DNA of 64,000 nt, taken from Scleroderma bovista. Lineage: Eukaryota > Basidiomycota > Agaricomycetes > Boletales > Sclerodermataceae. Of this stretch, positions 29,523 to 64,000 are shown piece by piece. The stretch's first letter is position 1, and each line of letters begins with the position of its first letter. Below the pieces are notes generated by a model. The model made no database searches, was not told the DNA's origin, and was given only the letters and a program-made list of their open reading frames with translations. Both the position numbers and the translations under genes were made by a program. The stretch spans positions 27,093-91,092 of the forward strand of contig JAYMGJ010000375.1 in NCBI GenBank assembly GCA_037178675.1. Direction: 5' to 3'.

Positions 29523-29552
29523 GAGCCCATGCACCTACTTAGGCCGTCTTAC

Positions 29553-31590
29553 ACGGCCACCCCAGGGTGAAAATCGGCCGAGTATGACGGGCCAGCGGAC
29601 AGAGGGCCCTGGATGAGTTGTTATCGGTTTGTACGGGTTGGCTAGCTACAAGGATATTGTTGCAATGTGTGAGGATGGGCTAGGGTGTCAATTAAGGGGA
29701 GGGTATATAGATCAAATTAAATATTATCATGGAATCATATGAATGAGCCCTGAAAAGATTGTGCCGCATATTAATGGGGGGTACATAATGTGTTATCACC
29801 ATATCAGTGGGTTGGACCCAGACATTGCTATCATCCATGGTAATTGATGGGCCCATATTGCATTGTAATCAAAGCATATAGCAAAGCTGTATAGAATCAG
29901 CACAAAGCAGGGCATACCGCTAGGCATGCAGGACTGCAGAAAAGGAAACACCCGCGGGCTTTTTGTAGTAAATGGAAAAAGGGAATACTTAATGGGATGG
30001 AAACTGTTGTTGGTGATACTACAAAGCACCATGAGGGGGGGGGGAATAAATAGGATGGGATCCATGGATGCTACATATCCACGGTTTGTTTGGTTGGTAC
30101 ACCACAAGAGATAGGAAAGGAAATGAGGTAGCATAACAACTAGAGCAGGACCTTGTGGGTGACTAGTACCGCAGTATACTAATAAGAATGATGGAATGCT
30201 ACAGCAGGTGTGAAGACGCACATCAAGAGCAATTAAATACAGTATCCTGTTAGATATATTAGTATATCACCCGCGGGAACAAATTACCAGCGGATACACG
30301 ATATTGCTAGAGAGGTAACCCAGCATACAAGTGCTAGGTAGTACGGTGCCAAAGGTAAATTTGCCTAGAATGAAATCCGGGTGCGAATGAGTTCATCACC
30401 GCGGGTGCAGCGGGTAGATACAGGGAATGGGTGCCAATGATTACTAGTGATTATGTTCCCTACTGGTAGCACAGGAGAATGGTACCGCGGCGAAGTATAC
30501 TAATCAGCAGTCATTAACACTTATTGAAATTTATTAGATTATGGTGAAATTAACAAAGTGTAAGGTTTTGAAGGTAATTAGTCAGTGGGATGTTGCTGAA
30601 CACACGAGCCGCGCGGTATGTGACTGAACCCGCAGTCATTTCAGCAGGCACAACTGAAACACCCACACAAGAATACATTATGTTCAAAATAGCATAGTAA
30701 GAATGTGTAGAGAAACATTAATATATAGATCAGGACACATTAAATATGAACCAAGCCATGGTTGCCTCAAGGCTTAGAACCCACAGTGAATTAGTTTTCA
30801 GAGGCCTTAGAAAGACAATGCAGGTACTTCCTGGAAATTAACCGATTATATGGAGGTGTGGATAACAAGTGGATGATACTATATACACTATCTACTAGGA
30901 TAACAGTACCAATCAAAGAGAAGAGGGATACCACAAACAGCATGCTATGCTGCAAAATGATTGGGTAGAAACTTATGCTAGATGAAAACAACAGATAAAT
31001 ATACAATAACTTAATATGGCGTGGGATCTGACAATGGATTGGTCGGATTGGGTTGGGCAGTGCCAGGTACCGCGGTCAATTCAATTGCATATAGCTACTG
31101 CTGTTCTGCTGGTAGGATGCTAGTTGAGGAACTACATAAAATAGACCATGGTGACGGTGGGTAGATACAACCTTATCCGATCACCATATCAGTGTTTATT
31201 CAGATCATGGTAGTACCTGCAAAAAATGGGGTGTACACTAGTTTAATTAATATAGAAAAAACATAGAGACATGGTCTACAAAAATATAAATTACACTGTG
31301 AAGAACAGGGGTTCACAAAGAGTTTCATATTCAAATACCTAGCCTGCTGAATGTTCAAAAGCCGCGGTTAGCCTCATTTGACATGGAATTAATTAAATTA
31401 ATCACACCGGGTACATTAAATCACTATTGAAAGACACAAATTATATATTCAAAGAATGCATGCATGACATTCCAGTACTCCAATGACACAAGTAAGTAGA
31501 TGACTTGCATAAAGGGAAAAAAGAAAAATTGTTTGGGTGTACAAAAAGAATAGTCCAAGAGGGAAACATACAAAAAATGTAAGTAACAAA
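29553..31590. other. Non-coding left subterminal region of element A
   Basis: Two kilobases with no supported gene. It holds CCGCGG at about 29952, 30271, 30399, 30485, 31070 and 31362. Confidence 0.5.
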
Positions 31591-33468
31591 TCATGCGGTT
31601 GTATCCATTTGGGTATCCACCCCATCACCTACCGATCCTTCGACAATACCCGCGGGACCCGGTGCTGACACATCCAGTGATGTGACCACAATGGTGGGAG
31701 GGGGGACAGCGGGAGTATCCACGACCATTGTGGCATCTGAGGCATTTGTCGGAAGAGGGCAGGGGGGTGGCGCATAGTCTTCATCAACACCAGAGTCCAC
31801 CGACCGCGGCGAGTGTGCATCCCCGGTGGGCGACCACAGAGTCACCAGCAGGTCAGTTGGCACATCGATTGGATGGGGATCTGCGACTGAGGAATCCTGG
31901 CCCTCCAGCAATGCAGGTGCTGTAGATGGAGACTGACCTGGCACCTGGTCGTCGGGCATATCAGCGGTGGTGTGGAAGGTGAGGCCAGCAGATGCAGGGA
32001 CCGAGGAAGGTGAAATGGGACCTGGATTGGATGCAGGACCATCCACAGGTGTGGATGTTTGCACAGCAGCGGTGGGCAATGGCGTTGGAGGGGCAGTGAG
32101 CGTACTTGATTGCAAATCTTCCACCAGCTGACGAAGGGTGTCCATTTCCAGCTCCTGGGCGTTGAGTCTTCGATTAACATCGCCCAAATCCTCTTTCAAC
32201 TGCGAGCATTCGCTGCAGGCACTCATTGTCGCAGTGGTCGCATGCTCGCTCCATTCTGCACTTGTGCCGCGGTTGCGGGATTTTGACAGCCATTTCAGTC
32301 GGACTATAACCACTCCATCAAATTCTGTTTAGACTTTCAGAAGAACACAAAAAGGAAATATAATCACTCACTTTCACGCCTGCCCCTTGATGGCCCAGGT
32401 GTAGGAGGGCGGGGTGCAGACCGGGGATGTGGGGTATCATCCGCGGGAATGGGACTCTGAGCTTTGTGCTTGCGAGTCGAATGGGAAGGGTTGACGCGAG
32501 TAGGTGCCAGTGGGACTGTCTTCGATGGAGGAGACACCCTGCGACTGGCTTGCCTGGTTGGTGCACGCGACCGCGACCGAGACCTTCCACGTTTGGATGC
32601 CAGGCTGCACCCATGCTTCGATTTGTTGCATTGGAAGCATGCGCGATCTTCTTTCCTCGCACAGGGCAGCTGGCGACGGGCACAGTAGTCGCACCGGTCC
32701 ACAGCTGGAAGGATCGGAAAGTCGGGTGGGGGGTGTTGAAGGTCGAATGTCTTATTGGAACCACGACCAGTGGGGTTCTCTTCCTCGTCGCTGTCAACCA
32801 TCGGAGCAGACTTGACGCGTTTGCGAGGGCGACGGGACTGGCTACGTCCCCGTGTCTGCCCATGCCCACGACCGCGGCGACTCCCTCTGACTTCCTCACC
32901 ACCTGCTGCCTGTGACGAGCTAACCTCATCATTACTCACCTCATATTCCCTTCCCTTCCCCTTATCCACAGCCTCTGTCACTTCCTCCTCTCCGTCCATC
33001 TGGGTGTCTTCCATTGCTGCTGGAACCGCTCCACCGTCCTGACATGGTGGACCGCGGTGTGACCATGGATGGTCAGCGACGGTCTCCAATGGGCACTGTA
33101 GAAGTTCAGGCCACCTCGGCCACTCCGTAATACCATCGTTTGGGTCTTCCAGGTACCGGTCAAGGGCCATGAGCATGGGAGGAATGCTCAAACTGCGGGG
33201 TATGTCTCCCGCAACTGCTCTAACACGGTTCTGCCAGGTATCAGCTAAATGAAACTAGCATAAAATGATAACTTACCAACTGAGTCCAGACATCCCGCTG
33301 AACCTGCATCCACAGCGTCATATCCTTCATTTTCTTAATGGTTGTGACTGTTGAGATGATGACGGACGTGGCATCCGCGATAATTTCGGCAGGCATCATG
33401 GGAGTGTCAAAAAGACCGGACAGGTCAGATGTGGGTGCGAGTAGGGCAGTCGAAGGCTGGGCAGACAT
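31591..33468 (-). CDS. Zn2Cys6-type zinc-cluster protein of element A
   Basis: Three exons, complement(31591-32324, 32372-33230, 33277-33468), 1785 nt, 594 residues, all GT/AG. Around residue 245 lies C-x2-C-x6-C-x7-C-x2-C-x6-C (CDYCARRQLPC ... CFQCNKSKHGC), the exact plan of the fungal binuclear zinc cluster, which normally binds CGG triplets. An acidic N-terminal part and an SR/RGR-rich basic stretch precede it, an RSRSRS stretch follows. A coiled-coil-like segment (SQLKEDLGDVNRRLNAQ) sits in exon 3, then a long proline/serine/threonine-rich tail. Exon 1 is 64 codons, exactly as in the element B homologue. DNA binding is inferred from the motif. It is divergent to the W-x-P-P gene across a shared 820-bp spacer and carries six CCGCGG copies in its own exons. 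Confidence 0.82.
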
Positions 33469-34288
33469 AGCAGAATGAGACAAAGGGTGATTGGAGGTGG
33501 ATAGCAAGGACGCGGTGTGGAATCCTCACGGCAAGGTTGAATATTTATTATGGTTACGTCATCCAGGGTCCACTATGGCCGCGGTGTCAGATTGACAGAT
33601 GTACGTCACACCGCATGGAAATGATGGCCGATGACCTAGAATGTCGGAGAAGCCTGCCACATGTCTGGAAATAAATGTATGTAAGAATTGTATGTTACTC
33701 CTCCAAAATATTGTATTGAATAATGCTGGTAGAGAACATGTGACAATCATGAATTTATGAAGATCATTACATTGCATCTGCTTCCATTGACTACGGGAAA
33801 ATAATACATACTTCAGACTGTTCAAACTACATGAAAAAATGGCAAATTGTACAGACAGTAATACCACAATCTCACCCAAAATATGAAGTTAGACAAATCA
33901 AACCAGAGTCCACTCCATGGGTAAAGCTGCGGCTGACAGGTAATTAGTAAAATTTGACTGCCATGGCCACCACATGATGGACAAGTCAAATAGTCAAATA
34001 CCTACCATTATATGTAATATGTACCACTATCTGCCTGGAGGATAACATTTGGGATATTGCCTGTGATATTATACACAATTACCGTGGATGATGCCCTATT
34101 ACAACCTAAATATGGAATAATGGGCGCATTGTAGATACATTCCAGGCTGCATTCCACCGATGACATCACGCGGCTCATTGTGCCCGCGGGAAATGTCTTA
34201 TATAAGCTAGTCCATACAATATATATTTATTCTGGACCTGTCCATCCCACCCTTGCACTCCGTCGTACCTCGTTCCTCTATTTACATC
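33469..34288. promoter_or_regulatory. Divergent promoter region, element A
   Basis: The spacer between the divergent zinc-cluster and W-x-P-P genes. CCGCGG lies at 33579 and 34184. A TATA-like CTTATATAAG follows at about 34196, some 90 bp before the W-x-P-P start. Confidence 0.45.
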
Positions 34289-35831
34289 ATGAGTGGGCAA
34301 AGGAATGTGAGATTCATAGATGATGGCGCAGCCAACTCAGGTATGTCTATGAATCCAAGTCTCCTCAAAGTAACTCCCAAACTTATTTTCATTAGCTTTA
34401 TTCGGTAGCCCAGGATGGATACCTCCCATTAGAAATGCTACACGCACCTCGTGTTTGTATATCTCTCTCGATATTAGGCACTGCTAATCTAATCATCGCA
34501 GCGAGCAATAGTAGCACTGGATGGTCTCCACCGCGGATTCCAGCAACTGTGGATTCCACAATGATGGTGGACACCAAAGTTTCAAATAGTCCTTCCGCAA
34601 GGTCTCAAAGGGATTCAGGTATGTATTTATTGTTTTATATTTCTTATAATTCATTTCATGTTTGCAGCTAGTGAGAGGAGCACAGGCGGGTCTCCAACAC
34701 AGTATCTGCCGTCCATGACCGCGGCTATGACAATTTCTCGGAGTGGGTCGTGTATGTATTCTATTTGTTGCCTTTATTGCACCTTATAAAATCTTTTCAG
34801 CAAGTTCCAGTAGCAGCAGGGGTTGGTCTCCACCACACGTCCGGCCGCGTATGATCCCCGGTGCTGCAATGTCGGTGCACAGCACCAGTCCAAATATTCT
34901 CCTGGCCTTGGAAGTTGCGCTTCGTAAGGATGAACAAGAGCAACTGTTGCGACAAGATCAATCCTCCACTACCGATTGGGATCCTCCCGCACTCCCACCA
35001 ACAGGGAGACATCCCCGCGATGCTGGGCCCCACAACAAATTACAAGAGGTACCGACACCTTCATCCATACAAAAAAGTCCATCAGAAGTCTCCATGGATA
35101 CCGACACATCCACCAACAGTGGTGGATGGACTCCCCCTCCCCAAAGACCCCAAGAAATATTCCGCGGGTTATCCACACCACTCTCACCGCTAACTCAATC
35201 ATCCATGTCGATGTCGCCACACCCTGCATCAACTATTGATAGCGATACTGACAGGGAACAAATTTCCCGCAAGGACCAGTGGCCAAGGGTTATTGGTACC
35301 AGTCCCACCACCCACAATAGAGTGCTGGAGAAAGGAAAGGCGCCGGAAACCGAGCTGAATGAGGTGACCTGTCCAAAGGTTGCGGAGGGTAAGTTTGCCT
35401 TCAAATTTGATACTGTTAGCTCACAGGTCCATAGATAAATGGTGGCAGTTAGTCTACAGTATGGCCAACATGGACATCTATGGCGGTAGGTTCAATGGGC
35501 CGCGGCATGAATGTGAGTTCTCATTGGATAATATTGTATTGATACTTACAAAGAAATAGTAACAACAGCCCGTGAAATAGCTGCAAGATTTCACCCAAAG
35601 GATAGAAGGGTCACCAAACTGGACGACCTCTATGACAAACCGATGGTCGTGATGTACAAACAATATGCGGATAGGTTGGTAGAAGAGACATGAGAATGGA
35701 GAAGGCTTGTCAATGGCCGGGCACAGTATGCAGAGATGAGGGAGAGACTGGTGCACATGGACAAAGGTGAGGGATCCGACTCAGACAATGGCATGTATGA
35801 TATGGAGGACTTGGATCCTACCATGTTGTAA
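34289..35831 (+). pseudogene. W-x-P-P repeat protein of element A (one stop)
   Basis: Six exons: 34289-34340, 34502-34618, 34668-34751, 34801-35388, 35435-35512, 35560-35831, 1191 nt. All introns are phase 1. Exons 2 to 4 all begin with an Ala/Ser-Ser-rich start followed by G-W-S-P-P-like motifs, as if one exon had been duplicated; GWTPP and DWDPP recur later. The last two exons match the element B homologue in phase, and exon 5 has the same 78-nt length. An in-frame TGA at 35691 removes the last 46 codons. Function unknown. The low-complexity middle looks disordered, and the C-terminal part looks helical. Confidence 0.7.
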
Positions 35832-35904
35832 TTACATTCCTGTGTATATAGTGAACCGGAAAACAATACTTTCTCACTAATATATTTACATGCATGTATG
35901 GTAA

Positions 35905-37335
35905 CTACTTTCGGGATCTCTTTGGAATGCGGTCGTCCAGGTAGTCCTCAAGCTGCGGTGGAAGCCTCTTATGCCGGGTGGACTGCCGCTGTGCAGGCGC
36001 AGCCATGGCGGTAGGTGGCTCAGGAACCATTGGCACGATGCTGTCTGAATTTGCAGGCTCTGTGGCAAATTGTCTGGGAGGTGCCTTGTCACCGGTGGCA
36101 GGGCCCACGGTTTCAAACTGCACCCGGCGAGTACTTGTTCTGGCGTCTGGGAATTCTTGTTGTAAATATATATTATATATATAAGATACACAATGACAAA
36201 CTTACTTGTCATCTTGGCACCTCGCTTATCCTGTGGCTGGTCAATTGATGTTTTGGAAGGACCAGTGATTGCCTGCTGAGCTGCGGGAATACTTTTACCT
36301 AACGTAGATTTTTTTTCTGAACATATGTTAGAAGTATGATAAGATGTGTGTATATATTAGAATACTGGTACCTTTAATTTCGGTTGCCGTCTTAGCCGCG
36401 GTGACTGATGCAGCTCCATTTTTTGTCCTATGGGCAGCAGTGCTTTTCCCTGGGAGCACACCATGTTTCTCTGAAGTTATGTAATATATGAAACACATTG
36501 AAGGTTTAACAGCACACAATACTCTTACCTTTTGTCTTGGCCCCTGGTCTAGTTGCTCCGACCTCTGCTGCAGGAAGGGAAGGCACCGACGTTTCCTGCT
36601 GCATTGTAGCACTAGTCTCACCAATTGCTGCAGGTTGTTTCTCTTCAATGATATATAAAAGATTTAACTATTAATAAATGTGTGACCGCATAACATTAGA
36701 CAAACCTTTGGTCTTCACCCGCGGCTTTGGTTTGTCACTGACCACAGGATGATTTACCATCATATCTGTGGGTGCATGACCCATATCATCCGGTATTTTT
36801 TGTCAATTTTCACCGTCATATAATGTATTTCTCACCTTTTTGTTTCACAGGTTCAGCATCCTTATGTTGATCGGATCCAGCAGGAATAAAATATGCCTTG
36901 TTGGGTGGGCCAACCTTGATATTGTGACTGGAACCATTGTCCCTTTCATCCAAAGTGGAGTCTTGGCATGTTAGTTAGAGTACCTTCCTAGGGTAGTACA
37001 CCTTCCCACTTACTGTCTGCAATTTTGTCACCAGCTTTTCCCTTTGAGTGTCCTTTACCACCCATGTGTCGTGGCTCAGCACCTCCTAACATATGTCAAC
37101 AATATTAAGACACATGAAGGTAAATCCTTACTGTGAATATTTGCGCCACTGTGTAGGTCCTTTGGCTGGCCTCCGGCCCTGGAGGGACCCGCTGTGAGTC
37201 AAAGTGTGGATTTGGGTCGGAGTAATAACCCAAACACAACACCAACAAAGGACTACGAAAATGTGCGAGTGGTGGTTTACCTCCGCGGTGTCCAGAGAGG
37301 ATATGCTGAGGAGGGGGAAAGGGGATCCACACCAA
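35905..37335 (-). CDS. Small basic KDZ-associated protein of element A (5' end uncertain)
   Basis: Nine exons traced on the minus strand: 37281 back to about 37335, 37132-37191, 37014-37085, 36836-36961, 36706-36765, 36529-36642, 36372-36470, 36206-36298, 35905-36155. Every internal exon starts and ends in phase 1. Each piece is short and rich in lysine and proline (KPKPRVKTK, RPGAKTK); the C-terminus PKRSRK looks like a nuclear localisation signal. No ATG was found for the first exon, so the start is missing or lies in another exon, perhaps displaced by the insertion next to it. Element B has a homologue with KPKPRVKK and the end PKRRRK. No known domain. Confidence 0.6.
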
Positions 37336-37399
37336 CAGGGTGATGCAGACAGTGATGCAGGATACTCCTGGGGGACAGGAGTAATAGAAGACGAAGGGG

Positions 37400-39200
37400 A
37401 TAGGGGTCTGGACTCTTCCTAAAGCCTAGGAAGTGTCAAAGCGGGGATTGGGTTGACTGGGACTGAAACAGTGATACTACACCTAGAAGTTGGTGCAGCA
37501 AAGGGGCAAGGGGGCTCCTGACGTCCAGAAGCACTGAGAGATGAAGGATTGACTGGCTAGACTCCGCTTGAGCCTAGAGAAACACTTGGACTTGAATAGA
37601 CTGAATAAACTTGAGATATCAGAGCCTTTAGACCTTCACTGAAGCCTACAAGACTCAAAGAACTGAGGGGATACTGACTGAGAGAGTCTGAGAGAGGGAT
37701 AATTTCGTGCAATTGGGTCTTTTCACTAGGCTGAGCCCAGGGGTTTAAATACATGGGGGGGCACAGCATTAAAGTACAAAAAGAGAAGGGAGTAAGCAGA
37801 ATTTGTTAAGGATTGGTAAGGGATTGGTAAGAGCTTTGTAAGGGGTTTGTAAGCGATCAGTAAGCAAGGGATAAGCAGGAATGAGTAAGCATAGGAAGCA
37901 TGAATAAGCTGCTGAGTAAAGGAATGAGTAAGCTGCATGACAAGATTGATTGGTAAGGGAGTGAGTCATCAGCTGAGTAATATACCAAAAATGCGAAAGG
38001 GATAGAGTAATACTGATGACAAGAGAGCATCAGTAAGCAAGGGATGAGTCACTGCACAGCAGAAGGAGTCATTGATGCACAGCCTAAGAAGTTTGATGGG
38101 GGGCTGTGTACCATCAGGAATTTGATGGGACAACAATGGGGAAGATCTGAGATAAACAGGGGAATTGATCCGAGACAAAACAGCCACAAGAAGGGTACCA
38201 GGGGTCCAGAGGTCTTTTTGGGGGGTCAGCATACACTAAGGTATAGTGCATGTGTTCTAGCGCCGCTGAAGCACAACCATGGGCTCCCTTGATGAGCTCT
38301 CTTCTGGGAAAGAACGAGAGAGGGTTCTTCTTCCTAATAGCACTATAAAGTGGGCGGAATAACTGTCATGGTGCTGGGGGACGTCGTCTGAAAGTAGGGA
38401 AGCGGATAGAGTATTGAATTTGACGCATCCAGGGAAGTGAGACGAACGACAGAGGAAGATGGACATGGCAAGTATCTGGGAGGAAGGGACCATAGGCTGA
38501 GGGCTCAGGGGACACAGAGACGACCAGAGAAGACTTCTCAAGCTTGACAATAGACCTAAGATGACCAAAGTATGTCCTTGACACAGGACTGACGAGGAGA
38601 ACGCGCTGACCGAGAACGAGAGGGACTGAGGGAGCAGGCTGGGAAGATATGTGCCAGGCAGTGCACGGAAACTATGGGAGAGGCTTTCCTAAGAGCAGGA
38701 CATAGTGGAGATCTGCAGCAATAGCGGAGAAATGATCCAGAGAAAATATGGACTCCATAGTGAGCAATGAAGCGAACGTCTAGATTGTGGGGGGAATATC
38801 TCTGTGGGAAATGAACGGATTTGCGTCGGAACTTGACAGGCAGATAAACCACGTTCTAGGCTCTCTGATGGTATAGTCACGTGCCTGATAGCTTCAGAAA
38901 CAATGGAGCTATTCAAAATATCGGAATGCCGGCACTGGGCGCCTAAAAATGACATTTGGGCGCTAAAAATCATTTCTTCTCTTTCTCCTTCGTTTCTCCA
39001 TCAATTCTTCGGCTTCTTTGATTGTTCTGGTATGGGAGTTGGACTGCAGACGTGTGCATTCCTTTCTCATACCACAATTGATGTTATTCCTTCAGTTTCT
39101 TCTGCTTCTTGGCGGTTCTCGTGCGATAGATGACTGTCTGCATTGGCATTCATTTCTCGCATCAGGATAGTCTTCTTGTGCGATAGATGGCTACGATGAG
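37400..39200 (-). mobile_element. Unidentified insertion in element A, retroelement-like
   Basis: A 1.8-kb stretch with no CCGCGG, unlike everything around it, and with no counterpart in element B. On the minus strand it has a TATA-like TATTTAAA (about 37750) with a CT-rich region after it, reminiscent of an LTR, plus AGTAAG-rich short repeats at 37790-37990. No protein family was recognised and the boundaries are approximate. Confidence 0.35.
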
Positions 39201-39246
39201 GGTCCGTCGTGCTTATCCTTCACATAAGGATCATTCAATATAGGTG

Positions 39247-41058
39247 TTATCTTCCATGTTCACTGTACCAAACCTGTTTGGTGCGTGACACCGCAGGCCC
39301 TGTATGCTGCGGCATTCCCTCTTCATCCGCTTCCACGTTGTCATCTTCATTGATGGCAGGTTCTGACCATGGCTCAGTAGTGGCATATTTAATATGATTA
39401 TATTCACCTTTCCTGCGACCCTTGACTGGCGCTTTTTGGCCGGAGTGTCCCACTGCAGAGCCGCGGGGCCTTTCCTGCCGCGGCAATGCATCTTCATCAT
39501 CATCCTCGTCCTCGTCCTCGTCCTCATCACCCTCGTCACCCTCATCATCATCCTCCTCCTCATCATCATCATCATCTGGTGAAGGTTCTAATCATGCCTT
39601 AGTAGTTCCTTATTCAATAACATTATCCATACCTTTCCAGCGTCTTTTGACACCACTCTTTGCAGAACCGCGGTGGGATGGGCTAACCGCAGATTGGACT
39701 GACCCGTCAGACTCCAACCATCTCTTGAACCTGAAGGTATCAGTTGGATAAGTCACCTGCCTGTCTCGCCACCACTCCAATATGGCAGTGGCCTCCTCGT
39801 TTGTAAGCCTAGAGGGTTCCCTGAAGGCTACATTGGTTGGCCAATACCGGCCAGAGATATATATGCCGCGGTCTTCTGCAATGGCAGCCCAGGGAACAGT
39901 GACATCTTGGCGGTCACAAGCCTTTCCTGTGTGACACCATTAGTCTTTAATTTCCAGATCTTATTTACATTACCATAATGAAAACCAATGAATGCCCGCA
40001 CGACATCCTTCTTGTCTTGTGCATTCATATTGAGAATGACAGGAATGGACGGCGTCCCATCCTCATTGGAGGGGAGGTTAATCCGCGGGCACCGTTTACC
40101 TCGGCCGGGCTTTCTTCTTGGCACCTGGTTTTCGTCCTCGTCCTTGGAAGGTTCCCCAGCATCCTCCTGCACCCCAAACACCTCATGGGCATATCGCTCC
40201 CATTTGCTCTCTACCCTGTCCCACCCCTCAAACATCTTTCCATCACCTATTTCATCATTGAAGTTGTGCCTGCTGGTGTTAGTAAAAGTATCCACACTCA
40301 ATGACCGCACCTACAGGCCATACATAATATCCCCTGCAGCATCTTTCCAAGCCGCCATCACCACCACTCTTGCACCACATTGCTTCCACATTTCCTTTGG
40401 AAACTCCCGTGCAAACTTCCGGCCTTTTGCTTCCACGGTTCTACCCACACCTGAGTGAAATTCGGGAATGGAATAATATACTCACTTTGCTTGAATCTCT
40501 GCAGGGGGGTGGCTGTTGTTCCATTCCTTCGCCGTCCCAGCTGCTTGCTCGATCTGCTTTGGGCTCATTTTCTTGATCACCTTTCCCACTGCCTGTTGAT
40601 AAAATTTAATATACCCCTTGGATCCGGGTGCATGCCCAGCTCTTGTCAGTAAAGAATCTATTTTCTCCTTGTGTTGGTGTGCTACCACCATGCGGGTATT
40701 CCATCTCCGGCCATACTTGACAAGTTGCTTTTTCTTCCGGGTACGACTGTGGTTATAGAGCCACGTCTGAATTGCCTATGAAGACACATTATTGTAACAC
40801 CTCTAAATTGGGGGAAGCACTCACCTTCTTCTTGACCACCCATTGGTTACTCTTGAGGGTCCTGTTGGCCTCCAGCCCTTGAACAGTGTGCGCAATGTCC
40901 TTGAAAATAGACTTCCTCTTTGTCGCATCAGCGCCCATCCACTGTTCCAATTTCCCCTGGATAATTGCAACCTCATCTTTTTGGAGGGGGGTCTTGCCTT
41001 GGCCTGAACCATCAGAGTGCCCACCACTGTTGCTGCTGCTGTATTCAGAATCAGACAT
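39247..41058 (-). CDS. 508-residue KDZ-associated protein of element A
   Basis: Seven exons, complement(39247-39362, 39408-39587, 39633-39926, 39974-40269, 40324-40440, 40486-40775, 40825-41058), 1527 nt, all introns GT/AG. The start MSDSEYSSS fits the element B copy. Conserved blocks with B: a helical N-terminus (LQKDEVAIIQGKLEQW), MWKQCGARVVVMAAWK, EDGTPSIPVILNM, VPWAAI and REPSRLTNEEA. Exons 6 and 7 both begin E-P after a phase-1 junction, and exon 6 holds a long acidic run followed by KGRRK. No known family was recognised. It is divergent to the transposase gene with 427 bp between starts. Intact as far as I can see. Confidence 0.75.
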
Positions 41059-45330: not shown

Positions 45331-45334
45331 ATTG

Positions 45335-50664: not shown

Positions 50665-50744
50665 TTTTGTTACAGTAGTGCGGCAATAAAATCTTTCGGC
50701 ACAAGACATGGCAGATTTGACAATAGAATTATTCTACAAGTATA

Positions 50745-52470: not shown

Positions 52471-52499
52471 CTGTTTGCAGATGAATAATTGTCAAGATA

Positions 52500-53085: not shown

Positions 53086-53540
53086 CCATAGATCTGCTGG
53101 ATGAACGACTGCGGGCCATGCTGTATGTTGAGTAGACTTAGATACTTTTTTGAGTGGTGCTGTGCTAGAGAAGTCCCGGACACTTTGTTGAAGGATTCCC
53201 GAGCTATTGTTTCTCCCATGTCAATTAGTGTTCAATTCCTCCACGCCGACCTCTTTTGGAAAGTCCATTGGTGAGCTAGCTACTTCTGGGGCCGGCTATG
53301 TTGTTCGGCAGCTAACAAGCTATTTCCGGACTTTAACTTAGCATCTAATTCAGTAGCGGCTACCATATATGGGATTTTTGCATTGGTGCCTGATCTTCAA
53401 GTCCATATTACAAAAGCTAGATCCAAATTGGCAGATCCAAAGATCCCTTTCCGATCACTGTCCATGCTGTTTCAATGAGGCTTCAGTGAGATACAATGTG
53501 GAAAGACTTTGTGCAGGGATTTCCTCATCAGATACCACTC

Positions 53541-56500
53541 ATGGCAAAGTCCAAGATACAACCTGCTGGTAGCTCTACTCTGGTGGTTCATGTAACATGG
53601 CAGGCATTCAAATCAAGGAGGGGATCTATTGATAAGATGGTGAAGGCAACGCCCCGAAAGAAGGCCCGTCATGGAAAAGCTCCTTCAAATGACACTCCGA
53701 CCCAGTCAGCATCTATAGGATTAGAACAATCCCAACTGTTTCCAGATGATGGCCAGCCATACATTTCCATGGATGATCTTCCACCCCGAAAGAGAACAGG
53801 TGTGTCAAAGAATCAGGTGTGTGATTTATTCCGATCCTGCACTTGCCATGTCCTCCTGAAGGCATAATAGGACAGTTACTTATTGGCATGGTTGCCATAC
53901 AAGCAGAGGTACCTCCAGGTCCTTCTGGACATGGAGGCACCCCCTCACCCAAGGGTCTGCATGTTGTGTCAAGGAGATGGCACGTACAGATGCGCCAAAT
54001 GCATCCACCGGCCCTTGCTCTGCAGTTCCTGTTGCAGAAAGGAACACAAGTTGCGGCCCTTCCACCGGGTGGACCAATGGAACGGTACATTCTTTGAGGA
54101 ATCATCGTTACGACTGGTGAGTCATCAATTCTACGTGGCATACAGCAACAACTCATTTAGAAGGCTGGGTTGGTGGTACACCTCGGCCATGGTGGGGATC
54201 CATGTCCGAATGGCGGGATGGATGGTGAGGACATTGCTGGTGATGTTGAGGATGAATGGGAGGATATTCAGGACCAACCAAGACCACATCATCTTTCTGG
54301 AGGAATGGACAGGTCTTGCCTAACTGTAGTGCATACATCTGGGGTACATTTTTGCGATGTGAGGTATTGTAACTGTCCAGATGCAGGAGCTTCGCATTTG
54401 CAGTTGGTCAAAGCAGGACTCTTCCCGGCAACTACAAAGGAACCTAGGACTGTATTCACCTTCCAAGTATTGGATGACTTCATTATGGATAATGTGGAGT
54501 GCGGCACCTCTGCCATGAATTATTACAGCAAGCTTCGGCGAGTCACATCCAATGCATTTCTCGGCCTTGTACCGGTGAGTTCAAAGCATGATATTAAGGA
54601 CCCGATGACACCACCAACACTGATCCAAGAACAGATACAGAGAGCTACTCAGGGTGTCGAGGATGTGGAGGCTGTTAAAGCTGTTGAAATGGCAAGGTTT
54701 TCATCCAGGATCTCCTGATCCCAAGAGGGGGGAATTGGTGCTGTTCTGTCCGGCATGCCCACAACCAGGAGTAAACATTCCATCCAGTGAAGATGTAGAC
54801 CTCTCAGAGTAAGTAATGTTTTATTTTTACTTGTACTTATTGAGCAGCTGCGCGATATAGGTGGAAATATTCTAGGACCATCGTGATGGATGGAAACTTC
54901 AAGGCCGAGCATATGCGGCCAAAGAATTCAGCTAATGAAGTTTGGCTCATGGACGGAATGGGATTCATGGTTACAATGCTGGAATATAAGGATTATCTGG
55001 CCGGAACATTGAACCGGGTCGAGGTTTGTGATTGCACATGTTTACAATACGGTTCAGCATTGTAATGGAATTCACAGAAATCTGACTGTAGCAACCATCG
55101 AGCAGTAAACCAGGCAAATGCTAAAAGAAATCAGCTGGCATCTACTGGAATTGGCGGGTGTGCATGTGCGCGGCATGGATGCTTTGTACCCCATGCAATG
55201 GTTGACTTTCAGAAGGGAGAGCAGTATGTGCCGACATGTTGCATGCATTCCACCCTAACAGGAAGATAGGCAGGTAAATATGGATTATGCTCTGGCACAT
55301 GCCGTGCAACATGGGATGGATCCGCAACAAAAAGTCATAACCTTTTATGACATCAATTGCCAATACAGCAAAAACCTAAAGCGCCGGCTAGAAGCAAACA
55401 ATTTTATATCCTTACCACCTGGGCTATGGATTCAACCTAGCATTGGGCTCTGGCATGGACATGGTCACAAGGCAGAATGTTTCACCCGATATGCTCCCAA
55501 TTTCATTTCTGGTGTAGGCCACGTTGATGGTGAAATTATGGAGACTCTCTGGTCCTCTCTTAACATCATTTCGCCATCGGCCCGCGGAATGGCAACGCCG
55601 CATAGACAGGAGCTGCTTGATTTTCAAATGAATGACAACAACTTCTTAAAGATGGTGCGGATGCATGAGTGGTATCACAATATCTTGCAGATTTTGGGTG
55701 AAGTATGCCAACGACATATTGCACAGCCATCACCCTGAAAAGAAAATTGAAGAATGCTCAAGAGGCACTGATGTCCACGGAAGGAGCATTTGTGGAGCTT
55801 GATACAAGGGTTCCGGTCGAGTTGCATGAGCTTTGGGCACAGCAAGAGAAATCGGCTTTGGAGAATAGGGCTACTGATCCAAAATCAATGGACATATTTG
55901 AGGTGCAGCTGGAAAAAGGTATTTACTTGCTTGGCTGATTTCAAACCAATTTGACGTATATGACAGCTCAAACAACGAAGTCGATCGAAATGGATATTAT
56001 AAGTAATCAGGGACCGGATGGTCGTATGCGTGGGGCAGCAACATGGATGGCAAGGGTATTGAAAGCTGAAGAATCACAAATTATTTTGGCCATAGATGTC
56101 CGCCACATTCATGCAAGGGCGACGGAAACACAAAGGTTGTCTATTGCCCGCCGGCAGGACCGCCTGCAGATGCAAATTGATCGGCTCTGTGAATCAGCTT
56201 CCCAATTTCTAGGCGAAGATTGGAATGAGGACATCTCGGATAATCTCATTTCCACAACGGACATCGATGAAGGTGATGGTGAAGATGTATTTTCAGACAC
56301 ATTCCACCCACAAGATCCCAACTACTTGGATGCTGTGGTACTGCCCTTGCCGTCGTACCTGGGGATGCAGCAAGCCGATAGGTTGGGGCTTTTAACCATG
56401 GTGGATCAGGAGTTACGATTGAGGGAAGGTCAGGCCAACGATGCTCTACATGAACTAAGGGTTTCGCTGGCACACAAGGCAGTCATCTTCCGGACCAATG

Positions 56501-57059
56501 TCAGACATGCCGGGACATACAATATGACTACGAGGGCCTGGGGGAAGGTGGGTAGTGCCGATGTGAAAGTGCAGCGGCATGTGGCAATATATTGTCAGTG
56601 CCGGAAACAAATGATAGCATTGAATGCAAGCGGCAACACATTGAACCGATACAAAATGTTGAGGAAAGAAGACCTAAAGATCAGTGCAACCATTGCCGAC
56701 CCAAATGCAAGGGGTCATAGGGATGACACTTTGGCCTGGTTTTGGACAATGGATGTGCCGTGGGATACAGAGGTCAATGATTGGATGTCTGAATGTAAGA
56801 TGATTGCTCCTCATGTTAACACTGGCTGACATGTATAGTTTACCGGGTGCATTGATTGAGGGCGAAAGCATTGTGAGACAGGTGGGACGAAGAGGTAAAA
56901 CTATTGACATGTGAAGCCACCTGGACAAGACAATTTTTTTCGTATAGGGAAACACTTTGGAGAGATCAAAAGGAGGAGGCTAATATGAGCGGAGAGATGG
57001 GGAGAGCATGCTATGCAGCAAAGCAATGTCAAATGTATGGTAGACTTGGTTGTGTATGA
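53541..57059 (+). pseudogene. KDZ transposase B (two stops and a lost splice donor)
   Basis: Exons: 53541-53816, 53871-54116, 54161-54574, 54630-54808, 54861-55023, 55078-55223, 55270-55664, 55727-55918, 55967-56794, 56839-57059. The CxC2 motif (CMLCQG ... CAKC ... CSSCC) and core landmarks MDGNF, FYDINCQYSK and VDGEIMETLW match element A. Three lesions: the donor of intron 7 reads ATGAGT instead of GTGAGT (55665), and TGA stands at 56853 (where A has Trp in VHWL) and at 56874 in the last exon. The damage affects a splice and the C-terminal tail; the catalytic exons read through. Trans-mobilisation by an intact copy elsewhere would be needed. Confidence 0.85.
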
Positions 57060-58404
57060 TTGGCATTGACCATCGGCATCAAATACCACTATATGGTATG
57101 CAAAGAGGACATATTTAAAATGGATCATCGAGTGGCTGTTAGTGGAGAAAACAAGGTGCAACTGCAAGGTATTTATGGGGTGCATACCTTGGAATGAATG
57201 GATGATGGAATGGGAGGGTCATGAACAGTGGCACGTAGATTCACTGGTAGCTGGAATGGAAAAGCCATGTACCAGCAGCAATTGAATGCCATGCATGCAC
57301 ACCCTTCGGCCAATATGTAAATATAAATCTGCCAAGGGAAGAGGTGCAATCATGGGCCTACTGGCCGTGGTCCTCGTAGTTCCATGACTGCTGGCATTGA
57401 TAACAATCAACTACCGCAGCTAGAAACCATTGTGTGCCGGTGCAACAGCTAGCTATAACCTATGTGTCATAGTTCACTGCATCAATCGTGCTGTTGTGTA
57501 GTGGCGTGTCAGGATGCTTCCAGCAGCGTGTGCCGCAATGATGATGATGCCAAATTGTTGATTGTGCCGGAATGTTGACTGTGCCGGAATGATGAATGTG
57601 CTGAACAGTTGATTGTGCTGGAGGGCTGACTCTGCCGCAATGTTGAGCCAGAATGGTGATTGTGCCGAAATGATGATTGTGCCACAGTGTTGGCTCGGCC
57701 ACAATGTTGCCTGTGCCGGAGGGTTGAGTGTGCCGGAGTGTTGACTGGGCCAGACTAATGATGGTGCCGACGGAGTGTTGTTTGTGCCGGCCTGTTGACT
57801 GCCGGGATGTGGATCCTGCCGGAGTGTTGACTGTGCCACAAGGTTGATTGTGCCGGAGTATTGATTGTACTGGCCTGTCAACATTACGGCAGAGTCAACA
57901 CTGTGGCACAATCAACCCTCTGGCACAATCACCGTTCTGGCTCAACATTGTGGCAGAGTCAACCCTGTGGCACAATCAACCATTCAGCACATTCATCATT
58001 CCGGCACAGTCAACAGTTCGGCACAATCAACAATTCGGCACTATCATCATTGTGGCACACATTGCCGGAAGCATCCTGACACGCCACTACACAACAGCAT
58101 GATTGATGCTAGATTAGTTCACGCTGCCAGAATTATAATTGTGCTGAACTGTTGAATCTGCCGGAAAGTGTTGACTATGCTGGAATGATGAATGTGCCGC
58201 CCTGTTGAATGTTTACACTTGACCAAGCCGGATCATTGTGATCATGCCGGAATCAACTTTGGGCTCGCCGAGCGGCACTACATCCCATCGGCACAACACA
58301 CGTTCGGATAGTATCTACTACAAACTACTTCCAACAAATTTGGACTACATACCATCAGAATTACATTTTAGTACAACAAACAATCATATCAGGAAGCTAA
58401 TTAT
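57060..58404. other. Spacer with a 220-bp inverted repeat of TGCCG units
   Basis: This lies between the 3' ends of the convergent transposase and dioxygenase genes. 57479-57700 and 57885-58110 are inverted copies (both contain AGTGGCGTGTCAGGATGCTTC), each built from TTGATTGTGCCGGAATG-like units. Confidence 0.75.
57479..58110. repeat. Inverted repeat, arms 57479-57700 and 57885-58110
   Basis: The arms match closely with about 185 bp between. Each holds roughly ten copies of TGCCG/CGGCA-type units spaced 16-20 bp apart. It could form a hairpin in DNA or in read-through RNA. Confidence 0.8.
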
Positions 58405-59773
58405 TCAATGCTTCACCAGTGCATTGCGGACATTATCTGGCGTCACCCAATCAAGAGGCCGTGGCACCCTCAACCAATGGTGAATATTATCCCTCATATA
58501 ATATGCCAAACAGCACCTCGCTCCGTCAACCTCGTTGACGCCGTGCTGAAAGAGCTGGCCGGAAAATGCAACGACAGTGCCGGGATTGTACAATACCTGA
58601 ATCCCAAGACTGGGAATGTGCAGTGCACAATCATCATAATTACCGACACTGACTAGCATGTCATACCAATCTGCTCGAGAGTGTGGGTCCCTGTGGAGGG
58701 GGGTACTTCGATTGACAATTAGTGAGATATTGGTGAAGACAGTGGACCAATTTTCAAGTGCCGCCAGCATTCCAGGATCATGGCTGGTTGCCCAGTCAGT
58801 CAAGTGTTGCATGGCAAGGTGGCCGGCATGGTATAGAGGCGGATGGATAATAGAAAGAACACCTGAAAGTATTGCCGACGGAAGACATCTATCCTTGCTC
58901 CATTGATAGCCCGTAGGACCGGCCAAAGCCTTGGACACCCCCGGAATGTCATTGGGGGTCTAGCAGAAGATCAAACAAGTGCATTGTCAAAAGAACAAGG
59001 TACTCACAGAATGGCCGAGCATGTGCCATGCCGGAGAGAATTCCAAGCACCCGAAAATATCCATGTCATCCTTGAAATACTGGTGTGTTGTACGCCATGA
59101 TTGATTAGTAATACTCTCTTCCAGTGGATCTGCAAGTGAATCAATGGATGCCGCGATGTGCTCCTAGAAACAAAGGCCTCAACAGTGGACAATGAGAGTG
59201 GAATGATACCATACTTGGATGCAGGGAGCTAGAGCTCCGGGAAGATACCACAATGCAATTGTGTCACCTTCTCCCAGAATAATGGTGGGCCGGGAAAGGG
59301 TCCCAGTCAAAGAGGAAGGATGTCTACGGAGGACCCTAATCTCCTGTTGCTCATTTGTGCCGGATTGCATTGGTCCGAGGCTTTCAGACAACCTAATCAA
59401 GTCAATGCCGCACGAAACTTCAGCGGATATCAAGCAAGGGATAATAGAACTATAAAAGAATTGGCTCACTCCGATTATGGTATGCCTGTGTGATGGTGGA
59501 TACAATTTGGTTCATGGCTACAGTTGCGTCCACCGGCAGGGACAGAAGTGTTTCTGGGGTGGGGGAATTTAAATCTGGGAATGCTTCATTCAGGAAGCAG
59601 CGCCGCATATATGATGCCATGATGTCAGACAAAGTATAGTTGGATGGCATGGCATTTGCACCGGCCATTGGATACAGGACGACTTTTGACAATGTGGGGA
59701 GTAAAAAATTTAGTGGGGGATGTGCAGCATCCTGCGGACATCTGTTTGCAAACAGCAATGCAACACATTCCAT
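58405..59773 (-). CDS. TET/JBP-family 2-oxoglutarate/Fe(II) dioxygenase of element B
   Basis: Four exons, complement(58405-58959, 59008-59163, 59215-59417, 59470-59773), 1218 nt, 405 residues, introns 48-52 nt. The double-stranded beta-helix signature is complete: H-x-D as LHRDPHS (about 310 and 312), second iron histidine in FQHGVN (about 360), and the 2OG-binding arginine in GARCCLAYYMR (about 369). The surrounding text (ADWYDMLVSVGNYDDC, VLYNPGTVVAFSG) is that of fungal TET/JBP proteins, which oxidise 5-methylcytosine in DNA. Their association with KDZ transposons in mushrooms is published. It converges on the transposase and is divergent (170 bp) to the 223-residue gene. No stop or frame break was seen. 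Confidence 0.86.
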
Positions 59774-59943
59774 TCTCGGCTAGATCCACTAAACAAGGCT
59801 GATCGGCGATTGGCCGGTGCGAAACAACACATGCCCGGTTGCACAATGTGGTAATTATGCATCAGGTGACATGTGGACCGTGAGAACATTGATTGCCTGA
59901 ATGTTATAAGGCTTAGGGCGAATCGGCCATCACACCATCAATC

Positions 59944-60710
59944 ATGAATACCACATCCGAACTGTCCATGGTATTGCAATACGTTGGAGTCCGCTTTCGA
60001 CGGATGGTGCACACGGTTCAACAACAGCCCGAGGGGATGCTGGCCACAGCTGCATGGTATGCAAACGTACAAACAGAAGTGGTAAGTGGAGAATGATTAC
60101 ATTTGATTAACACACTCATGAGCCCCCAGGCAAATTTAGAACGTGTGCTTGCCGCATGCCAGGCTATGGGTGCGAAGATGATATTGCCAATGATGGCGAG
60201 CAGGGTGCACAGAATGGTCATACTAGAAGATCTGCCGCTGGCAAGACTGTATGCGGCAATGCGACAGTTGAACGTCTATCATGCAAAGGCCGCTGAAGTC
60301 CAGGTTCCAAGTACGCTTCAAGTGGCAAACTCATGGTGGGTAAATGGCCACGGCCCATGTACGGCAGGGTACAGCACGCGGCCGCTGCGGGACATGGTAT
60401 CGGAGGCAGAGGCATTCTTTCCGCCGGACCTGGTATGCTCCCTTATTCGTGTTGTGTTAGATACTAAAGCTTTTCCAAGGTTGCTGATAGAAAGGTCACC
60501 ATTCTACTCACTGTTGGGTATACCTCCGACGAGGCCTTGTCAAATGCACGGTACTTCTGCGACAATATGTTGTGGAGCTCGGACAATGCCCTCAAATATC
60601 ATATAGAGGTGATGCAGCATTGTGCAAAAAGGATGGAGGACATTGAGATGCTAACCTGTGCACCAAATGCATTGCGGCAGAAATGGGAGGAGTCTTTGGG
60701 TGGTAGGTAA
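59944..60710 (+). CDS. 223-residue KDZ-associated protein of element B
   Basis: Three exons, 59944-60081, 60130-60432 and 60480-60710, 672 nt, phase 0 junctions. Mostly helical-looking, with a conserved NSWWVNGHGPCT ... VSEAEAFFPPDL block shared with element A (REWWVWGNSGDI ... VTEVEKFFAEYQ). No known family. It shares a 170-bp divergent promoter with the dioxygenase, so the two are probably expressed together. Confidence 0.72.
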
Positions 60711-62504
60711 ACATTGTATGAATACCTACATATATGTTCATCACAACAATAATTGGTTAATCAAATATCGGCCAAAGCGACACATGTGATATAATGTTGC
60801 CGGCCAAAGTCTGAGCTGCGGCTGCAACACCCGGCCAGGTTAACAATGAGGCAGAAATCACACAGGGAACACATCGGCATGAATGGGAATAGCACATGTC
60901 TGGGTGGAGGTGTCGTCCGCATCTTCCAATACAATGGGTGCCGCAAGTTGATACCTTATGCTGGTCGTCAAGTTTGCAGCTGTGATGGCTGTAACCAATC
61001 ATGGCTGGGCGGCAGTGGTGGCCTCCACTATGACAAGTACGGCCGCGGTATCATGGCAAAAGAAAGGTATGCCACAGCAATGCGGCCAGAGAACCAGGGA
61101 TAGCCGCTGCTGCCGAAGGACTGTTAGCAGCATGGCAGCCAAAGCAGCAGGGTAGCCATGGAATTGTGGCCAAGGGGCTAGAAGTAGCAGAGTAGGCCCC
61201 GCCTCCTGCAGTTCCCAAGGCACGCTGCTAAAGTGGTGTCACACAATGTGTCAAGCCCCATATGATGGTGTCCCATGATTACATAACAGCCCCAGGTGCC
61301 GTATCATCTATATGAGCAGGAGGCCCTGGATATAGTGTTCTCTATTCTATTATAGAGCCCAACAAATAGGAGTGAGTAGGAGGGCTGCAGTGCCAGTGTC
61401 CCGTGCTTTGCATCAGGCCCTAAATATGGTTTGCCATTTCTGTTGGCAGGCCAGAGGAATAGTGTGTTTCGGGCTTTGATCAGGCTGTAACAACAGAGTC
61501 CCTTTCTTACCAAAGGGCCATGGAACTATTGTCCCTTGCATTCCAATGGGCTGTGCAGAGACTGTACCTTTAAGGGGTGCTAGCCACAGGTGTGGTGTCC
61601 CATAACTCTGGGCAAGCCCTGGAGACAGCATCATTTATAGTCAGTGCGCCCAGCTCAGTCTGACAGGCAATGGCCATGGTATCCCATAGCATTGGGCAGG
61701 CCCTAGCAGAGGTGTTATCTAGCTATGCAGGCAAACCTTGCAAGTACATTTTAAAGTGACAAGCCATGAATGGGGTGTCCCAGAGGATTAAACAAGCCCT
61801 CAATGCAGGAACAACTATATAGTTGGGAAGGCATGTGGATAGGTGTCCCATTGAGTGCGTTGGGCCACAAAGTTGATCTCCCTGTATACCCATTAGGCCC
61901 TAGATACTATGTCCTCTATATAGATGTATCGCCGTGCATATAGTGTTAAGTAGCTACCGTTAGGCCAAGATCCGGCACGAGGAACCGTCGGCACTAAATT
62001 GATGCAGCAATAGATGCGGCTGACACATAACACCCGGCACCACATATCGTCGGCACCACATATCAGCGGCACTGCATATCAGCGGCACAACATCTCATCG
62101 GCACATCATCTCGTTGAACATGCCGGAGTGTTGACTTTGCCGCACTGTTGACCATGCTGCAATGCTGATTGACTGGCTCACTATGGTGTTATTGCTGCCG
62201 TCAGATTTCACCACACTGCCTCCATTGCGTACTGGCTCACTTATTCTATTGGTATGCTACTCCTCTGAGCCCGAGTATTTTCATGACGACACCCATTTGT
62301 CCGGCTTAAGACTTTCACCCTACCCCACGATGACAACAGAGCCATGGGCCCACCGTTGTCACTTGGTGACAATGCTGTCAGGGGCTGACCCCTGTGATAC
62401 AGCAAAGCTCTAGTCATAAGCCTCACTTCCACCAGCCCGTGTAGCACGGCCAATTGTCATTGTCCGCTGACCGTATAACATGGCCTACCCAGGTGCATGG
62501 GCTC
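60711..62504. other. Right non-coding region of element B
   Basis: No supported gene. It contains the right copy of the long direct repeat (about 61030-62010) and then a CGGCAC cluster (61975-62110), followed by the right end. Confidence 0.6.
61030..62010 (+). repeat. Long direct subterminal repeat, right copy
   Basis: Same orientation as 44550-45330, diverged. Both copies are followed by CGGCAC-rich sequence. Confidence 0.7.
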
Positions 62505-62512
62505 GATTGGCC
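62505..62512. repeat. Target-site duplication, right (GATTGGCC)
   Basis: Second copy of the 8-bp target; see 44306-44313. Confidence 0.85.
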
Positions 62513-63188
62513 TGGTGGAGCAAGAACTTCAGCTCAGACAAGGTCAGGCCAATGACACTTTACATGAAATACGACTTGGTCTAGCAGATAAGGTGGTGTT
62601 GTTTCGGACAGAGGTCAGACATGGGAGGAACTATGTGGGGACCACCCGCGCATGGAAAAAGGTAGCTGACCTGGATGCAATGGTAAAAAGATATGCTGTG
62701 GTCTACCACCGTTGCAGAAAGCAAATGATCGCCTTAGAGGCCGAGCCGAGGATCCTGGACCGCTATAAAGTACTTTCCAAAAAGGATCTCACAGTCAGCA
62801 CCGCGGTCTCAGATCCCAATGCAAGGGGACATCGCCATGACTCTTTGGCATGGTTTTGGACTATGGATATACCCAAAGACACTGATAAAAATGATTGGAT
62901 GTCAGAATGTAAGCCTTTCCATGCACCATCATATACCCTTCAGAATAATGATTCGGACCAGTTTACTGTGTCCACTGGCTGCAGGCAAAGGCAAAGCAAG
63001 ACAGATGGACTGAGGAAGTGGAGTTGATAACTGCAGAACAGGGTTGGACACATACCTTCTTCAGGACCCGGGCAAATCGCTGGGAGGAAAATGCCTCTGA
63101 GGCTTCATTATGTGGTGACCGCGGCTTGGCATGTTATGCAGCAAGGCAATATGACATGTATAACAAATTGGGTAGACTTTGTCAGTAG
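62513..63188 (+). pseudogene. KDZ transposase A, 3' part
   Basis: The remainder of exon 9 (62513-62908) and exon 10 (62962-63188, stop TAG). It holds ELQLRQGQANDTLHEIRL, DPNARGHRHDSLAWFW and VHWLQAKAKQDRW, the usual C-terminal blocks of KDZ transposases. It joins in frame to 44313. Unlike element B, the last exon is free of stops. Confidence 0.9.
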
Positions 63189-63337
63189 TCCCGTGACTGC
63201 TGCATATTATTTGTGTCGTTGAGTCATAATTTGTGATGTTCATTATTATGGGGAACATCAGTCAGATAATTCAATTATCATTCAATGTGGACAGGAAAAA
63301 ATCATAATTGTCATGTGTCACTATTGGGATGGCCACA

Positions 63338-64000
63338 CTACTCATTTGTGCCTCTCCATAATCTATCCGCAGATGCCGCCCATTTGTCCTCCAGTTCATC
63401 CCCTGCATCGGTCAAATATTCCACCATAGCCATGCGGTCAACCAGATGTTGCAACACCATGTTTTGATGAAAGATCTTCTCATCAGTTTCTTCCAACATT
63501 TGCTCGGTTTGTAGTCGGAGATCCTTCAGGCCAATGTGGGGGGTTTCTGGGACATCAAATAAAGCCGGGATTGCAAAGTCCCCAGGCTATTGACAATGTT
63601 ATTAGCTTATCATCGCACATGAATGTAACCTTACCTGGTATTCGGCAAAGAATTTCTCCACCTCTGTGACCAGCTGGGTGAAGGTTGTCCACGGTATATC
63701 TCCGCTATTCCCCCACACCCACCACTCCCGTGGTGTACTGTGTGTGCTGTGGACTCTAGCCTCCCGGTGATACACCTTGAATACATTTATTTCTTTGATT
63801 TGTTCCATCCTTGCATCACTAGCCCCTTTCTGTTGCACGCGGCAAGTAGCCGCTCCAAAAGTGCTTACATGGGGGATATGGTCATATTCAAAGTTTCAAT
63901 ATGGAAGAACACACCACTTCTGAACATGTCCATACCAGTTGATCTTCTCCAGAATGGCATGGTCACTGCTTTGCTGCAAAGAATACACGAACCACCTGAA
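63338..64000 (-). CDS. 223-residue-type protein of element A (5' end beyond window)
   Basis: Last exon 63338-63586 (PGDFAIPALFDVPET ... VDRMAMVEYLTDAGDELEDKW), middle exon from 63635 to about 63866 (GASDARMEQIKEINV ... WWVWGNSGDIPW ... EKFFAEYQ), first exon from about 63915 beyond the window end (FVYSLQQSSDHAILEK). Homologous exon by exon to the element B protein. Here it converges on the transposase, whereas in B a dioxygenase gene lies between. Confidence 0.65.

Follow-up and report, generated by a model that had tools for sequence, protein, structure and literature searches.

The VANC proteins of Arabidopsis VANDAL transposons are encoded by the elements themselves and are family-specific, with motif and protein diverging between related families; the motifs were reported from tandem repeats outside coding sequence, and probes of coding DNA were bound poorly (PMC5735166, PMC10398659). 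In maize Spm and in MuDR, the element proteins TnpA and MURA, respectively, are tied to demethylation or hypomethylation of their own family (PMC10398659). Kyakuja elements of Agaricomycotina combine a KDZ transposase with a TET gene and a 7-bp target duplication (PMC12730594). Kojima 2025 proposed that such TETs aid the escape of transposons from silencing, and speculated that TETs of this group act without a specific target (PMC12730594). The yeast pleiotropic drug response element (PDRE), TCCGCGGA, has a CCGCGG core and is bound by dimers of the zinc-cluster proteins Pdr1/Pdr3 (PMC11111045). Here we describe a KDZ transposon, element A, in a 64,000-nucleotide window of the fungus Scleroderma bovista (assembly GCA_037178675.1, contig JAYMGJ010000375.1, positions 27,093 to 91,092), which carries the word CCGCGG along its length and encodes a putative zinc-cluster protein.

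The window contains 40 CCGCGG sites, including 34 in element A proper (14,187 bp in three parts), one in an unrelated 2.1-kb repeat inserted in A, four in a second KDZ element, B, and one upstream of A (Table 1). The 34 sites compare with a mean of 0.96 in 300 dinucleotide shuffles (maximum 4) and with 2.59 expected under an order-2 Markov model. CCGCGG is the most enriched 6-mer across 29523-45000, and the remaining seven of the eight palindromic hexamers made of C and G alone occur 0 to 5 times in A. In a codon-preserving control, in which synonymous codons were shuffled inside the reading frames of each element and all 6-mers were compared, CCGCGG ranked first in the A frames with relatives in the elements at C86 or C202 (15 observed against 2.3), as well as in C86 (15 against 2.5) and C202 (12 against 1.7) themselves. 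All three reading phases are used by the sites in assigned coding DNA (5, 4 and 7 in phases 0, 1 and 2), with 16 sites per 5,141 bp assigned coding against 18 per 9,046 bp of the remainder. The spacing of the sites is no more regular than random and no longer consensus was seen in their flanks; of the patterns CCG-Nn-CGG with n from 0 to 15, n = 0 alone stands out in A (34, other spacings 0-4). Genome-wide, CCGCGG pairs 9-38 bases apart number 272 against 51 for the reversed pattern, and pairs 8 bases apart 34 against 1. Control regions showed no excess: the 2.1-kb insert (1 site), window positions 1-20000 (1 against 3.2 expected), the neighbouring 10 kb (0 against 2.0), the core of a divergent KDZ element at C324 (1 against 1.6) and nine other KDZ loci pooled (1 against 3.1). 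Thirty KDZ loci counted individually, the nine pooled ones among them, contained 0 to 2 sites each.

A preliminary description of this DNA had counted about 35 CCGCGG sites in A, in exons and non-coding DNA on no fixed frame, and about one in the preceding 29.5 kb. The present counts bear this out: 22 of its 24 coordinates are exact and two are off by one (39669 for 39668, 43179 for 43178), although 37283, which it assigned to A, belongs to the insert. It had also suggested comparison with a shuffled or codon-preserving background, and CCGCGG exceeds the codon-preserving one in A, C86 and C202 and the shuffles in A. The CCGCGG excess is confirmed as real, element-specific and spread across exons and non-coding DNA.

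Comparison of related elements revealed retention of the word (CCGCGG counts for the two pairs with A are means of both directions, and the comparison 6-mers do not overlap CCGCGG). Between A and C86 (77% identity), 10 of 20 CCGCGG sites are kept against 12 of 65 other 6-mers with two CpGs (one-sided P 0.007), and between A and C202 (77% identity) 7 of about 15 against 6 of 58 (one-sided P 0.003). In the closer pair, C86 and C202 (85%), CCGCGG is kept in 21 of about 33 cases and the other two-CpG 6-mers in 44 of 101 (one-sided P 0.035). In the two distant pairs, words of C and G without CpG were kept less than CCGCGG (4 of 20 and 4 of 27, both directions). C86 and C202 also have sites where A differs at several bases, for example at 40559, 43209 and 43948, so new sites also seem to form. 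When the window is compared with the C212 copy of the same family (97.8% identity), CCGCGG decays like other two-CpG words, and CpG transitions make up 132 of the 204 differences between these two copies. Judged from these alignments, the word is lost in single copies and retained in family lineages.

Other families have other words. The survey covered one genome and eight elements whose words were read, C306 over 3 kb only, and every element found to have a six-cysteine gene carries a dispersed word of its own that contains CGG. After masking of tandem arrays, CCGCGG ranks highest among 6-mers (observed/expected) in A (34/1.0), C86 (41/1.6), C202 (39/1.2) and the 3 kb of C306 (7/0.5), while the top 5-mers are CGGCA in B (114 against 31.7 expected), CCGGA in C441 (53 against 17.4) and ACCGG in C463-II (37 against 7.5). 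These three words partly overlap: CGGCA is abundant in C441 and C463-II as well, as are ACCGG in C441 and CCGGA in C463-II. None of the family words is in excess in the five control regions listed above. The codon-preserving control placed CCGGAG first in C441 and CCGCAG first in C463-I; in B, CGGCA came third of the 5-mers (33 against 16.7) with CGGCCA as top 6-mer, and in C463-II none of the family words showed. C463-I contains four CCGCGG sites and an excess of CCGCAG (11 against 1.3). CCGCAG is one CpG transition from CCGCGG, and we read C463-I as a decayed CCGCGG element. A search of 20 kb did not reveal its zinc-cluster gene, but C306 has the same 287-aa transposase frame, with a zinc-cluster gene 9 kb upstream and reversed as in A, and by inference stands in for it. 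C408 carries a relative of the zinc-cluster gene without a spacing match, and two CCGCGG in the 2 kb examined. The nine pooled KDZ loci are moderately rich in CGTACC (23 against 5.3, with related copies retained), and single KDZ loci are rich in possible further words (L007, CCGGAG; L021, CCGGAC; L025, CAGACC; L035, ACCTAC).

Some elements hold their word in tandem arrays as well. In C86, CCGCGG arrays lie near the left end (38534-38956), with further pairs near C86:19334-20218. B also has arrays of its word, and 16- to 17-nt minisatellites around CGGCA occupy 45334-45522, 48679-48953, 57529-57868 and 57895-58059. A non-coding 4.2-kb element at C43:18165-22412 (L001, L002), which may be moved by A-type proteins, is bounded by two A-like ends in opposite orientation. 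It contains repeats of about 169 bp with CCGCGG, some copies altered C-to-T or G-to-A. The divergent KDZ element at C324:14000-33999 (L044, L046) has CAGGCCGG and CCGGCC arrays in two blocks; no zinc cluster and no dispersed word were found in the 20 kb searched.

The zinc-cluster gene of A lies about 10 kb upstream of the transposase in opposite orientation. The zinc-cluster proteins show the spacing CX2CX6CX5-12CX2CX6-8C, and the spacing scan found seven such clusters in 206 kb, one per zinc-cluster gene found. Matches to the predicted fold of the A protein are all weak, and every one of them (three Foldseek hits and six listed VIA entries) is a Zn2Cys6 DNA-binding domain. Pfam Zn_clus gave E 0.0077, below the cut-off, for C463-II alone and no match among the 18 members of A1, and a profile of the zinc proteins found no related chain by sequence among solved structures. 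The spacing and these weak but exclusively Zn2Cys6 fold matches are in line with the earlier claim that A encodes a zinc-cluster protein. The adjoining frame with a coiled-coil-like sequence is probably its next exon. The cluster loop, between cysteines 2 and 3, is ARRQLP, ARRMLP or IRRALP where the word is CCGCGG, and other elements have other loops. The pairing of an RRxLP loop with CCGCGG had already been drawn from A, C86 and C202 when C306 was obtained; C306 agreed, although this was not a blind test, as the C463-I data had hinted at the pairing. Measured against the A transposase, those of B, C441, C463-I and C463-II stand at the same distance (65-69%), yet only the C463-I/C306 type among them shares CCGCGG together with a nearer zinc protein (46% against 31-33%). 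CCGCGG appears to track the cysteine-cluster loop and not transposase distance, with loops and words that are few and related by descent.

Families A and B also carry a TET/JBP dioxygenase gene, which the preliminary description had missed in the A copies elsewhere. In five A copies with an A-type zinc-cluster gene (C288, C343, C212, C173 and C554), it follows the transposase at a distance of 3.5-4.9 kb. The C554 frame has one stop; that of C212 was read as 219 aa, and the 2.8 kb read there contain five CCGCGG. The matches listed include no TET for the A-type transposase at C62. In the 51.8-Mb genome searched, KDZ transposases gave at least 166 matches and TET/JBP genes at least 150, with 150 candidates scored in each case.

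We propose that A represents one of several related KDZ families, putatively of the Kyakuja type, each filled with a family-typical CGG-containing word that would be held by selection and read by the zinc-cluster protein of the same element. The A word consists of two CGG half-sites back to back and would therefore suit a dimer of the Pdr1/Pdr3 kind. Sites along the whole element would allow the protein to gather on copies of its own family and little elsewhere, and the bound protein may recruit the TET/JBP dioxygenase of the element, or otherwise open chromatin, against CpG methylation. Binding, dimerisation, TET recruitment and anti-silencing are what we infer for the A protein. Since the element also has a TET gene and its copies show clear CpG decay, aimed anti-silencing would be the most economical use of the word, and different words and loops between families are predicted by a self-recognition code. 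Such a code had been suggested in the preliminary description; the differences between families agree with it. Element A does not take up the whole of 29523-64000, however: 44314-62498 is a second KDZ element with a word of its own, which had been overlooked. One observation weighs against selection on CCGCGG: in the closest pair, C86 and C202, words of C and G without CpG are retained as well as CCGCGG (34 of 56). We put the probability that the families mark their own DNA for their own zinc-cluster protein, most likely for anti-silencing of their own copies, at roughly 0.6. The stricter version, a family-private address code in which the entire element serves as operator and the zinc-cluster protein steers TET to its own copies, is a tentative proposal to which we give slightly less than even odds. 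If true, it would represent targeted, transposon-encoded demethylation in fungi, diversifying by co-evolution of a protein loop and a DNA word, with selection acting on DNA words within transposon exons. Fungal TET/JBP genes have spread along with DNA transposons. A family word scattered over the element and paired with a DNA-binding protein would be a directly testable answer to how such an enzyme favours its own element. It would also extend sequence-specific anti-silencing beyond the Mutator elements of plants, to a transposon class unrelated to them and to another protein, and could be a source of natural targeting domains with distinct CGG-containing sites.

The words could instead serve transposition, with the zinc-cluster accessory protein gathering element DNA into an excision complex, like the subterminal repeats of other DNA transposons. 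The CCGCGG arrays near the left end of C86, the non-coding element with A-like ends and CCGCGG repeats, and the arrays of C324 are compatible with such a role, but randomly spaced sites throughout A, exons included, exceed the needs of end recognition, and the TET gene is left unaccounted for; we consider this explanation unlikely. Most Zn2Cys6 proteins are transcription factors, and the A protein may be an ordinary activator of the genes of the element, with the many sites acting as enhancers. The PDRE is indeed an activator site (PMC11111045). However, the sites in A are not clustered upstream of genes, and nearly half of them lie in assigned coding DNA at a higher density than elsewhere, which makes a simple activator role quite improbable.

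A reader encoded by the host, acting for or against the element, would leave the zinc-cluster protein of the element unrelated to the words. The tie between word and element protein comes from sequence comparison, and to that extent a host reader is compatible with the data; but one genome contains several words, each with a different cluster loop, and a word harmful to the element should be neither kept nor gained. We regard a host reader as very unlikely. Finally, base composition, CpG decay or coding constraint might have produced the excess as a by-product, given that every word contains a CpG and that A is CpG-depleted (observed/expected 0.55). Against this stand 34 sites where 0.96 to 2.59 are expected, the first rank under the codon-preserving control, the different words of different families, the non-coding sites and the decay of CCGCGG within a family at the pace of other CpG words, so that a by-product is scarcely credible. 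On the shuffles, the codon control, the control regions and retention, we rejected all three of these as the main cause.

The window forms the right-hand part of a contig of 91 kb, and window position 64000 is where the contig ends. Since the right end of A lies beyond the contig, its CA..TG termini could not be placed, whereas the left end has at least 40 matches across the genome (the best 40 of 139 candidates). Both A and B have a KDZ transposase core (Table 1). B is inserted in the transposase of A; (G)ATTGGCC is duplicated at both ends of B and single at the uninterrupted site in the C212 copy of A, giving a target duplication of 7 or 8 bp, against 7 bp reported for Kyakuja. The C212 copy has the 2.1-kb repeat too, though at a different site, and the repeat recurs in C202 and C324. 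To the left, A is adjoined by 20-nt tandem repeats (CTACATTGCATCGGGTCGCG and variants, 28354-28630). Further upstream, a large imperfect palindrome (21220-27987) with 61-nt and 68-nt tandem repeats is CpG-poor and without CCGCGG; over 1003 nt, its inner arms (22427-23429 and 23526-24528) show 99% complementarity. Direct repeats at 10987-11571 and 19351-19934, 96-99% alike, 8.4 kb apart and without motif excess, are likely the ends of a long terminal repeat retrotransposon.

Table 1. Features of elements A and B and CCGCGG sites in the window.
Feature	Position	Strand	Basis or remark
Element A, part 1	29523..37189		left end 29523; C86 and C202 elements begin aligning exactly there
Element A, part 2	39296..44313		alignment with C212 copy
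Element A, part 3	62499..64000		alignment with C212 copy; cut by contig end
Unrelated 2.1-kb repeat inserted in A	37190..39295		control; 1 CCGCGG (37283)
Element B, second KDZ element, 18.2 kb	44314..62498	+	inserted in transposase of A
A zinc-cluster gene, exon with six cysteines	32367..33254	-	six-frame spacing scan; relatives in C86, C202, B, C441, C463-II
A cluster CX2CX6CX7CX2CX6C, loop ARRQLP	32607..32693	-	spacing scan; AlphaFold2 predicted local distance difference test about 90, residues 171-220
A zinc-cluster gene, probable next exon, coiled-coil-like, possible dimerisation part	31594..32328	-	open frame; relatives in C86 and C202
A transposase exons, 5' part, interrupted by B	42109..44313	+	relatives by tblastn
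A KDZ transposase core exon	43208..43672	+	PF18758 E 4.2e-31
A transposase, 3' part after B	62499..63024	+	relatives by tblastn
B zinc-cluster gene exon	46577..47425	+	cluster from 47135, loop VQQDRR
B next exon, coiled-coil-like	47404..48105	+	open frame; weak relatives in C463-II and C441
B KDZ transposase core exon	55259..55735	+	relative of A core, 74% identical; C375:82348-82734
B TET/JBP dioxygenase	58408..58959	-	PF12851 E 9e-19
CCGCGG before A	3135		sole one in first 29.5 kb
CCGCGG in B, four sites	44570, 51880, 55582, 61043		count
CCGCGG in A	29952..29957		count
CCGCGG in A	30271..30276		count
CCGCGG in A	30399..30404		count
CCGCGG in A	30485..30490		count
CCGCGG in A	31070..31075		count
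CCGCGG in A	31362..31367		count
CCGCGG in A, coding	31650..31655		count
CCGCGG in A, coding	31804..31809		count
CCGCGG in A, coding	32267..32272		kept in C86
CCGCGG in A, coding	32441..32446		kept in C202
CCGCGG in A, coding	32872..32877		count
CCGCGG in A, coding	33052..33057		kept in C86, C202, C212
CCGCGG in A	33579..33584		count
CCGCGG in A	34184..34189		count
CCGCGG in A	34531..34536		count
CCGCGG in A	34719..34724		count
CCGCGG in A, coding	35162..35167		count
CCGCGG in A	35500..35505		kept in C86 and C202
CCGCGG in A	36396..36401		count
CCGCGG in A	36719..36724		count
CCGCGG in A	39461..39466		count
CCGCGG in A	39478..39483		count
CCGCGG in A	39668..39673		count
CCGCGG in A, coding	39866..39871		count
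CCGCGG in A, coding	40083..40088		kept in C202
CCGCGG in A, coding	42168..42173		kept in C86
CCGCGG in A, coding	42544..42549		kept in C86 and C202
CCGCGG in A, coding	42724..42729		kept in C86 and C202
CCGCGG in A, coding	42980..42985		count
CCGCGG in A, coding	42998..43003		count
CCGCGG in A	43178..43183		kept in C86 and C202
CCGCGG in A, coding	44131..44136		kept in C86
CCGCGG in A, coding	62801..62806		kept in C86
CCGCGG in A	63119..63124		kept in C86

No prior description of a KDZ family word was found in the literature searched, which was mostly non-subscription and had Iyer et al. 2014 outside its scope. A word search of the available text of PMC8889193 returned none, and the available text of PMC12730594 mentions neither a dispersed word nor a zinc-cluster gene ('zinc' occurs 0 times, and the 11 hits listed for 'motif', 'DNA-binding' or 'palindrom' deal with other matters). 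The likeness to VANC drawn in the preliminary description was apt, as a short family-specific motif repeated along the element and differing between related families is also found here (A, B, C441 and C463-II). However, VANDAL elements are Mutator-like, whereas A belongs to the KDZ class and its family carries a TET gene as well, and the VANC motif was reported in non-coding tandem repeats, whereas CCGCGG is dispersed over A with 16 of 34 sites in assigned coding DNA. The cysteine cluster suggests that the zinc-cluster protein may lie outside the VANC family. The sites of maize TnpA are subterminal, in contrast to those of A, which span the element. With the site of Pdr1/Pdr3, A shares the CCGCGG core, but these are host regulators at promoters, whereas the A protein is encoded by an element with sites along its length. 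Like Kyakuja, the A and B families combine a KDZ transposase with a TET gene.

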